Assembly (NCBI GenBank): GCA_015662595.1
Contig: DQTV01000015.1
Coordinates: 1 to 34,819, forward strand
Direction of reading: 5' to 3'
DNA from: Ignisphaera aggregans
Lineage (GTDB): Archaea > Thermoproteota > Thermoprotei_A > Sulfolobales > Ignisphaeraceae
DNA: 34,819 bases
Shown here piece by piece: positions 11,755-14,432 of this stretch (position 1 is the first letter of the stretch; each line of letters starts with the position of its first letter). The translations under genes were made by a program, and so were the position numbers. The notes under the pieces were generated by a model. The model did not search any database. It was not told the origin of the DNA and worked only from the letters and a program-made list of their open reading frames with translations.

Positions 11755-12753
11755 GTGTTTTCAATGAGACAGACGATCATAAGGTTCTTTGTAGGTAAAG
11801 GTGGGGTGGGTAAGACCACTTGTGCTGCAGCTTACGCTCTTCGAAAGGCTCGAGAAGGCTATAGAACACTAATCGTTAGTCTAGACCCCGCGCATAACCT
11901 AGGCGATGTATTTGATACGGAGTTAGGTGATGAGCCGAGGACCATCGAGAGTAACCTGGTAGCTATAGAGGTTGACTATGATGCCATGATTAGAAAGCAT
12001 TTGAAGACTCTTGGTGAGAGAATTAAGGATATCTATGGCTATCTCAGGGTACTGAACCTCGATAAGTACATAGATGTGCTTAAACATGCTCCAGGGATAG
12101 AGGAGCAGGCTGTGCTTGATAGGATTGTTGAGATAGTCAAGGATTATGTGTTCAGAAAATCTGTTGATGTACTGGTATTCGATACTCCTCCAACAGGTTT
12201 GACACTGCGTATCATGGCACTTCCAGCGATCTCGCTTATCTGGATAAGCAAGTTGATGGAGTTGAGGTTAGCGATACTCGATAGGAGAAAGGCTATTGCT
12301 AGAGTACTTGGTGAGAGGCGTTGGGAGGTTGTGGTGGCTGGGCACAGAATAGAGCTGCCTATCGATGTTGCTGAAGACCCCATATTCCAGGAACTCAAAA
12401 AGCTCTATGAGGAGTACTCGATGATACATTCTGTACTTACGAACAAGGATATGTCTAGCGTAATAATCGTAGTAAACCCCGAAACACTACCGATCGTAGA
12501 GGCTAAGAGAGCATACGATTTCCTTTCAAAGCTTGGTATCTCAGTTAGCTATCTAATCGTAAACAAGGTCCTTAAACTACATGCCGTAAGTAATGAGCTC
12601 AGGCAGAAGTTGACTGAACAGGAAAGAGCTCTGAGCTTGGTACATCAACTATTTAGCGGTATGAACGTGGTTGAAGTTCCGTATCTACCCTTTGAACCTC
12701 GAGGCATCGAAGCGCTTGAAAAGTTAGCACAGATTTTGAAAAGCGTGGAGTAG
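11755..12753 (+). CDS. ArsA/Get3-family P-loop ATPase
   Basis: FFVGKGGVGKTTCAAAYALRKAREGYRTLIVSLDPAHNLGDVFDTEL; VFDTPPTGLTLRIMALP. Confidence 0.92.
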   Translation: MFSMRQTIIRFFVGKGGVGKTTCAAAYALRKAREGYRTLIVSLDPAHNLGDVFDTELGDEPRTIESNLVAIEVDYDAMIRKHLKTLGERIKDIYGYLRVLNLDKYIDVLKHAPGIEEQAVLDRIVEIVKDYVFRKSVDVLVFDTPPTGLTLRIMALPAISLIWISKLMELRLAILDRRKAIARVLGERRWEVVVAGHRIELPIDVAEDPIFQELKKLYEEYSMIHSVLTNKDMSSVIIVVNPETLPIVEAKRAYDFLSKLGISVSYLIVNKVLKLHAVSNELRQKLTEQERALSLVHQLFSGMNVVEVPYLPFEPRGIEALEKLAQILKSVE

Positions 12754-12772: not shown

Positions 12773-13444
12773 TTGGTGTTAGGGTATGCACATAAGCTCT
12801 CAATTATGATTACTAGCCCTGTATTCTTTGGGATTCTTTTACTGGCTGGCGTCACTATAATTCAATTCTATCGTGGGAGGAGGAAGAATCTTGAGATACT
12901 GGAGAGGAGTATAAGGATTCTTGAAGAGGTGATTAAGCCGAAAAGCAAGGAGTATACCGTTATAGGTATTTACGTGGGATATCACGCAAAGTACCTAGTT
13001 GATCGAGGTGGGGTTCGCGAGGTAGATGCGACGGTTGTGCTTTTACCTCGTCAAAGCCTTCTCTACATACCGATAGCTATCGTGACCAGTAGATTCGATA
13101 GACTTTACCTGGTATTTCAACTGCGTAAAACACCTTGTGCAGAAGCTCATTTAGTACGTAAGGGGTATTACCGTCTTGGCGTAAAGCGAGTCGTTAAAAA
13201 CTTTGAAAATATGGTATGTGAAAGTGTTGAGATAGGCAATGCTAGGTATCACCTTGTGTATACCTCGAGGCCTATGGCTGAGAAGCTGCTGAGGTTTGCT
13301 AATGAGTTGAGTAGACCGTCGATACTGAATCACGTTGCTGTAGTTCCTAAACTAAACCGCCTCTATATAGCAGCTAAACTCGATCTGGAGGTATTACACG
13401 AATTGATAGCTAAAAGCTATGCTCTAGCCAGAGAGGTTGCTTGA
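12773..13444 (+). CDS. Hypothetical protein with N-terminal TM anchor, downstream of arsA
   Basis: 223 aa, TTG start, helix SPVFFGILLLAGVTIIQFY followed by RGRRK. Co-directional and close to arsA. Confidence 0.65.
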   Translation: MVLGYAHKLSIMITSPVFFGILLLAGVTIIQFYRGRRKNLEILERSIRILEEVIKPKSKEYTVIGIYVGYHAKYLVDRGGVREVDATVVLLPRQSLLYIPIAIVTSRFDRLYLVFQLRKTPCAEAHLVRKGYYRLGVKRVVKNFENMVCESVEIGNARYHLVYTSRPMAEKLLRFANELSRPSILNHVAVVPKLNRLYIAAKLDLEVLHELIAKSYALAREVA

Positions 13445-13825
13445 GCTTTGTGAGGTACCCGCTTTAGTATCGCCACATGTCTGGGCTCTATGCACGGGAA
13501 CTAACACTATTGGTCTAAGCTCTACCATAGCCTGAACAAGCTTTCTTCGGCCACTATCAAGTAGTCGCCATAGTGTACCTCGGGATATACCCATGCGCTT
13601 AGCTGCCTCCTCCTGCGTGAGTTTTTCAAGGTATACAAGCCTCAAAGCCTCTAGCTCATCTGGATAAAGCTCTATACCCTCACCTTGTGCTGCTGGTCTT
13701 CCTGAGCTATCTATGGGGATGAATGTAACGTGAGGAAATGCAAACCATATAGCTCTAGGCTTCGGCATTCTACCAACACAACCTCGCCTCCAACGCCATA
13801 TCCACGGGCCACTCATACCAAACAC
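13424..13825 (-). CDS. DUF134 family DNA-binding protein (sigma-70-like HTH regulator)
   Basis: P(F)HVTFIPI...LYPDELEALRLVYLEKLTQEEAAKRMGISRGTLWRLLDSGRRKLVQAM is the DUF134 signature. Start may be MSGPWIW (13816) or MPKPR. Confidence 0.88.
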   Translation of the reverse strand: MFGMSGPWIWRWRRGCVGRMPKPRAIWFAFPHVTFIPIDSSGRPAAQGEGIELYPDELEALRLVYLEKLTQEEAAKRMGISRGTLWRLLDSGRRKLVQAMVELRPIVLVPVHRAQTCGDTKAGTSQSSSNLSG

Positions 13826-13911: not shown

Positions 13912-13951
13912 TGTGCAGCCGCACAAAACTTATAATCTGTGCAGCTGCACA
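13912..13951. promoter_or_regulatory. Twin palindromic operator: TGTGCAGCCGCACA (13912-13925) and TGTGCAGCTGCACA (13938-13951) flanking TATA-like aaacttataatc
   Basis: Two 14-bp inverted repeats (TGTGC-N4-GCACA), centre-to-centre 26 bp, immediately upstream of the ATG at 13970 and in the divergent gap next to a DUF134 regulator. Confidence 0.75.
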
Positions 13952-13969
13952 GAAATCTTGGTGTTAAGT

Positions 13970-14233
13970 ATGTGGTGGCTTTTCATGCCATGGATGGGCT
14001 TTGGCAGAGGAGGGCGTTGGGGATGGGTAGGACCATACCCAGGACGTGGACCATGGAGTCACTTGCCACCGTGGATGAGGCCCGGATGGATATGGGGTAA
14101 AGGAGCTTGTTGGTGGCTTTTCGGCCTCCCATACTGGATCATGAGGGCTTGGTATCCACCGCCGATAGTTCCATGGTACGCCATATGGAGATACCCGATA
14201 CCTTGGTACCCATACTACCCCTATCCCTGGTGA
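13970..14233 (+). CDS. Trp/Pro/Tyr/Gly-rich mini-protein (87 aa from ATG MWWLFMPW; listed ORF begins at 13913), possibly DUF5320-like
   Basis: The start at 13970 places the palindromes in the promoter, not the CDS. Manual count gives 17 Trp and 17 Pro in 87 residues. Confidence 0.7.
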   Translation: MWWLFMPWMGFGRGGRWGWVGPYPGRGPWSHLPPWMRPGWIWGKGACWWLFGLPYWIMRAWYPPPIVPWYAIWRYPIPWYPYYPYPW

Positions 14234-14240
14234 CTAGCTG

Positions 14241-14432
14241 ATGTACTGGTACCCATACTATCCTCCATACATTGTGTTTCCCTACGACCCGATAGCGTTG
14301 ATGTACAGCGTCTTACAATGGCTTTGGTATCCCTACTACGTAGCGCTAACACTGGAGATCTACAGGATAACTTTAGAGAGCATTCGTAAAGCGATGGAGA
14401 TGCTTAAAGAGCACAGAGAGCACGTACGTTAA
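14241..14432 (+). CDS. Second Trp/Tyr/Pro-rich mini-protein with helical C-terminus
   Basis: MYWYPYYPPYIVFPYDPIALMYSVLQWLWYPYYVALTLEIYRITLESIRKAMEMLKEHREHVR, starting 7 nt after the previous stop. Confidence 0.65.
   Translation: MYWYPYYPPYIVFPYDPIALMYSVLQWLWYPYYVALTLEIYRITLESIRKAMEMLKEHREHVR

Follow-up and report, generated by a model that had tools for sequence, protein, structure and literature searches.

Two palindromes flank the TATA-like element of a Trp-rich (W-rich) mini-protein gene in the archaeon Ignisphaera aggregans. We consider it highly probable that both are operators of the adjacent DUF134 gene product. This protein would be a helix-turn-helix regulator that acts as a dimer and represses its own gene along with a regulon for iron-sulfur storage or assembly. 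This reading was reached without binding or expression data. The window, that is, the whole 34,819-nt stretch analysed, contains two matches to TGTGCN4GCACA against 0.02 expected, a number reached in no shuffled sequence. The initial annotation had described two palindromes sharing TGTGC-N4-GCACA, 26 bp apart and with a TATA element in between, and their positions were confirmed (Table 1).

Table 1. Features of the DUF134/W-rich locus (positions are those of the window).
Feature	Position	Strand	Remarks
DUF134 gene, predicted regulator, recognition helix SRGTLWR	13424..13816	-	PF02001 match and structural model; alternative GTG start at 13825
Operator 1, TGTGCAGCCGCACA	13912..13925	.	Predicted DUF134 dimer site; abuts the TATA box on its upstream side
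AT-rich spacer aaacttataatc with TATA-like box of the W-rich gene	13926..13937	+	Sequence; layout recurs elsewhere
Operator 2, TGTGCAGCTGCACA	13938..13951	.	Directly 3' of the TATA box; W-rich ATG 18 bp on
Trp-rich 87-aa protein, predicted target	13970..14233	+	No Pfam or NCBIfam family
Tyr-rich 63-aa protein	14241..14432	+	Similar W-rich/Y-rich pairs in L008, L055 and L061

The palindromes had also been placed between two divergent genes. Measured start to start, the 26-bp pair brackets the TATA element before the ATG at 13970. The most plausible DUF134 start (ATG 13816 or GTG 13825) lies about 90 bp from site 1, which makes the bracketed promoter that of the W-rich gene. Since TTATAA is symmetric, use in both directions can be envisaged. 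Operator 2 is identical to the site preceding the W-rich gene (L061) of genome G003. The predicted W-rich protein comprises 17 Trp, 17 Pro, 12 Gly and 9 Tyr residues and not a single Asp or Glu; the Tyr-rich gene that follows is probably part of the same operon. No match to DUF5320 (PF17253) was obtained with the W-rich proteins of the window. An ArsA/GET3-like ATPase gene, recognised by its P-loop sequence, occupies positions 11755-12753, upstream of the DUF134 region.

The identification of the divergent neighbour as a DUF134 protein with a sigma-70-like helix-turn-helix was borne out by profile scores, a structural model and fold matches. The protein scores 66.3 bits against PF02001 (gathering cut-off 27) and matches PF04545, the sigma-70-region-4-like helix-turn-helix family; its score of 78.8 against the NCBIfam equivalog PRK04217 is below the cut-off of 115, making it a member of the family and not of that equivalog. 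In the AlphaFold model, pLDDT exceeds 90 over the helix-turn-helix, and the class-defining residues R79-G80 open the recognition helix. The best Foldseek matches of this model include sigma region 4 and operator-bound DeoR, none of them at E below 0.001; a PDB sequence search returned no DUF134 structure and only distant helix-turn-helix matches. The family, also named UPF0251 and COG1342, was detected in 112 of the 301 genomes sampled from the window's phylum and in 97 of 149 from a second archaeal phylum.

The assembly from which the window is taken (1,107,727 bases, 81% complete) contains four TGTGCN4GCACA matches in all, and none to a reversed-pattern control. Each of the four falls in a promoter belonging to a single group of genes, made up of DUF134/W-rich, a coiled-coil gene, and the genes for NifX and a MinD-ferredoxin protein. 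One site precedes a Trp/Pro-rich coiled-coil protein (L002) and another a NifX-type protein (L001) whose N-terminus is rich in Gly and Trp and whose downstream neighbour is a MinD-ferredoxin ATPase. In the relative G005, the genes for DUF134, W-rich, Y-rich, coiled-coil and NifX proteins form a single run with one site. That the genes are dispersed here and contiguous in G005, with each transcription unit having the same site, is the hallmark of a regulon. In a set of 61 related genomes, a promoter-located match almost always stands before a W-rich or NifX gene. Most of the other matches in these relatives are internal to coding genes and were discounted as chance occurrences.

By the criterion set in the initial annotation, the idea would fall if orthologous DUF134/W-rich loci lacked the motif. 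The motif proved to be conserved. A total of 80 archaeal DUF134 loci were examined, with titles that include Desulfurococcales, Thermofilaceae, Bathyarchaeota, Hadesarchaea and Archaeoglobales; at distances of up to 3 kb they have 28 perfect sites versus 0 and 0 for two control palindromes of equal composition, and 26 one-mismatch sites versus 4 and 9. The perfect sites mostly precede the starts of W-rich, NifX, coiled-coil or DUF134 genes, with four exceptions. Where the DUF134 recognition helix begins with RG, as in the window, and a W-rich gene is nearby, a site with at most one mismatch is found within 1.5 kb at 42 of 52 loci. By the same measure 46 of 101 RG loci have no site; 36 of these also lack a recognised W-rich gene in the vicinity.

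Sites away from DUF134 genes were surveyed in 28 genomes picked for having a site near DUF134, so that totals derive from a biased sample. Two of these sites precede feoA (L198 and L201), both perfect and just over 70 bp upstream, and one a W-rich gene beside superoxide reductase (L189); they point to FeoA and the L189 gene as predicted further members, suggesting that ferrous iron uptake is part of the regulon in some genomes. Genes for Cys-motif proteins are also found at such sites (L188 and L190). Among regulon members, the L188 protein matches DUF5320 (33.4, cut-off 27) and that of L123 scores below the cut-off (21.4). The remaining off-cluster sites checked were mostly within coding sequence. 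The context of the L195 site resembles that of the feoA sites, the identity of the gene being unchecked. Intergenic sites at L039 (G035) and at L191 and L207 (G063) lie beside transporter-type or unrelated genes, outside the regulon pattern.

A subgroup of DUF134 proteins with the helix SKATFWR shares the gene order and promoter layout and has a different palindrome, TGAAA-N4-TTTCA. The correspondence between helix and half-site was assessed on loci collected without reference to the motif. The first RG set had been gathered by protein similarity; further loci came from a Pfam search of the 301 and 149 genomes and were reduced at 85% identity to 145 and 55 (about 200 non-redundant archaeal loci). 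Every exact 5-N4-5 palindrome within 1.5 kb was counted for all 1024 possible half-sites. In each of four helix classes a single half-site dominates: TGTGC in RG (34 of 101 loci, runner-up 5), TGAAA in KA/EA (14 of 20, runner-up 3, in the window's phylum; 16 of 22 with the second phylum included), TGTGA in RN (5 of 18, runner-up 2) and TGAAT in QP (15 of 22). The QP figure is from the second phylum, where KA again gave TGAAA (2 of 2). Thus tabulated, helix class and half-site yield an almost diagonal table. Spacers other than 4 gave counts of about 0 for the three classes tested (RG, KA/EA and RN), and after dinucleotide shuffling of the loci the means ranged from 0.03 to 0.33, with no count above 2. 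No 5-N4-5 palindrome was enriched near 30 DUF134 proteins of the RK/RR type from the second phylum (among L318-L407); their operator, if any, is of another form.

At KA-class loci (L029, L297, L299, L312 and similar ones) a second TGAAA-type palindrome lies near the DUF134 coding end, in codons for KLVS; it may be a coding coincidence or a dual-use operator. The KA counts may include it, and nearly all the loci concerned also have a palindrome before the W-rich gene.

The helix classes are nearly clades: on a tree that is only weakly resolved, at least 5 changes of helix and 8 of operator are needed. Independent co-switches are therefore few, and what gives the correspondence its weight is that the counts were unbiased and that geometry and target genes stay constant. 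Because the operator changes with the recognition helix, DUF134 is the likely binder of the palindromes as far as sequences can tell. Altogether, conservation at the loci and a half-site that follows the helix strongly support the proposal that the palindromes are DUF134 operators, binding itself being inferred. Beyond what had been annotated, the sites appear to make up a regulon (NifX, MinD, coiled-coil proteins, FeoA) whose predicted specificity varies between subfamilies. A testable code ensues, in which residues 2 and 3 of the S-x-x-T motif are predicted to set the half-site.

Placement of the sites bears on the direction of control. Overall, sites abut or bracket the TATA element or lie a few bases before W-rich, NifX, Mrp or DUF134 starts. 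The TATA-adjacent geometry pointed out in the window recurs at other loci: twin sites enclose the element at 26 bp in the window, 24 at L148, 23 at L208 (where one is half-degenerate), 29 at L275 and 28 at L268 and L272, among others. Paired TGTGA-type palindromes, 28-29 or 44-45 bp apart, were seen in the DUF134 promoters of the RN-class loci L283, L275, L268, L272, L269, L247, L266 and L259, in most with a TATA-like stretch between them. At QP loci the site is found a few bases before the DUF134 start, which makes autoregulation likely, or some 20-45 bp before the NifX/Mrp start. DUF134 could bind these sites and yet act mainly as an activator, aiding TBP/TFB loading from a TATA-adjacent position. 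We regard this as improbable. The L198 feoA site, 74 bp before the start and upstream of the TATA box, would suit it, as would some W-rich sites just upstream of TATA (L116, L140); the feoA sites, being further upstream, might be compatible with activation. However, when 23 W-rich/NifX promoters were scored, 20 had their better TATA-like match upstream of the palindrome (several of these scores are weak) and 3 downstream; in the 20, the site would cover the start region. Bracketing of TATA by twin sites, in the window and elsewhere, also speaks against activation, and in the QP class a site lying 3 bp ahead of the DUF134 start fits autorepression better.

Another regulator of the same iron-sulfur genes, such as a DtxR-type iron repressor, could own the operators, DUF134 being no more than a co-regulated neighbour. 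DtxR-type regulators and FeoB do occur close to some DUF134 genes, and two genomes (G003 and G049, 70% and 63% complete) have sites and no DUF134 that could be found. However, the half-site tracks the DUF134 recognition helix over four classes, and a regulator unrelated to it would have to vary in parallel; moreover, the site stands directly before DUF134 itself at many loci, and a DtxR-like family occurs near only 7 of the 80. We rejected this explanation as quite unlikely. The notion that the palindromes act in RNA, as 5' leader hairpins, or are structural repeats was rejected as well and deserves very little credence: the stretch from TATA to the start codon does contain some sites, which could be partly transcribed, but many others flank TATA or are located upstream of it, where they are unlikely to be transcribed, and serve divergent genes, and exact 5-base half-sites are kept in each class with the gap fixed at 4, not mere complementarity.

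The preferred reading, autorepression by DUF134, can be cast as a mechanism. A DUF134 dimer, itself inferred, probably binds a 14-bp palindrome of two 5-bp half-sites with 4 bp between them, and the choice of inner bases in the half-site (TGTGC in the window) would rest with the first two residues of the recognition helix (here RG). In the window the pair encloses the TATA box of the W-rich operon; its occupancy should then exclude TBP/TFB and polymerase, resulting in repression. Such a steric block to loading is the simplest reading, and DUF134 would likely control its own gene too. In the QP class the predicted operator, TGAATATATATTCA, would act before DUF134, NifX and Mrp genes. Most likely, DUF134 would adjust the storage or assembly of iron-sulfur material according to redox state or to iron or sulfide, the signal being an inference.

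A role of DUF134 in iron-sulfur handling is likely in view of what the sites precede: W-rich and coiled-coil small proteins (partly DUF5320-like), NifX/IssA-like proteins, MinD/Mrp carriers and, in some genomes, FeoA; FeoB and DtxR-type regulators as neighbours point the same way. The L001 NifX protein has a Nitro_FeMo-Co (IPR003731-type) domain (PF02579, E 2e-16). IssA of Pyrococcus furiosus is a thioferrate storage protein with a tail rich in Trp, Gly and Arg (PMC5524996). IssA and the regulon NifX protein have this kind of domain in common, the latter adding a Gly/aromatic/Arg-rich segment, and the separate W-rich proteins resemble the IssA tail in composition. In L001, though, the rich segment is N-terminal, as opposed to C-terminal in IssA, and much of the aromatic material resides in separate small proteins. 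No link to DUF134 is described in the parts of that study consulted. The comparable composition leads us to conjecture that the W-rich proteins might be the detached matrix of an iron-sulfur store, thioferrate binding being inferred by analogy.

Outside archaea, a DUF134-NifX-PaaI-Dps cluster on a conjugative Klebsiella (enterobacterial) plasmid (L408) supports the iron link, DUF134 being found beside NifX and Dps. Possible TTGAC-N4-GTCAA or GCATATGCC-like palindromes were seen upstream of bacterial DUF134 genes (L408; L410, Roseburia; L411, Treponema), a sample too small for half-site inference. The broadest formulation, a simple DUF134 recognition code across archaea and probably bacteria that in hyperthermophilic archaea controls an iron-sulfur store made of NifX/IssA-like proteins and a Trp/Tyr/Gly-rich matrix, is offered tentatively, as a hypothesis we would not yet favour over its negation.

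In the open-access literature, which leaves out most subscription journals, we found no study of a DNA site, regulon or specificity for DUF134/UPF0251/COG1342 and no DNA-binding study for DUF5320 or MTH1175; UPF0251 appeared in one mutation listing, with nothing on DNA binding. A family without a known DNA site thus gains a predicted operator for each of four helix classes and a functional link to iron-sulfur handling, and the small Trp-rich proteins, devoid of Pfam or NCBIfam matches, get a first functional handle. Should the broadest formulation hold, the recognition code of DUF134 and the aromatic matrix proteins would each be new.

In sigma factors, the N-terminus of the recognition helix reads the -35 element, and it is in this same part of the helix that the class-defining residues of DUF134 lie. 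The fold shared with sigma-70 region 4 and SorC/DeoR-type helix-turn-helix domains extends over 40-50 residues with an rmsd of about 0.6-0.9 Å (PDB 7bhy, DeoR with operator; 2h27, sigma-E region 4 with -35 DNA). In contrast to these proteins, DUF134 is free-standing, about 110-130 aa long, and has neither the sugar-binding domain of DeoR nor sigma region 2.

The operators of CRP (TGTGA-N6-TCACA) and FNR (TTGAT-N4-ATCAA) are, like those predicted for DUF134, short palindromes of fixed spacing, and the TGTGA of the RN class resembles the CRP half-site. However, the DUF134 spacing is 4, compared with 6 for CRP, the fold is another one, and there is no cyclic-nucleotide or Fe-S sensor domain. As to the type of inference, the closest parallel is a study of the GntR family which derived regulons and protein-DNA correlations by comparative genomics (PMC4494728); co-evolution of regulon and motif was used there much as here, in a different family.
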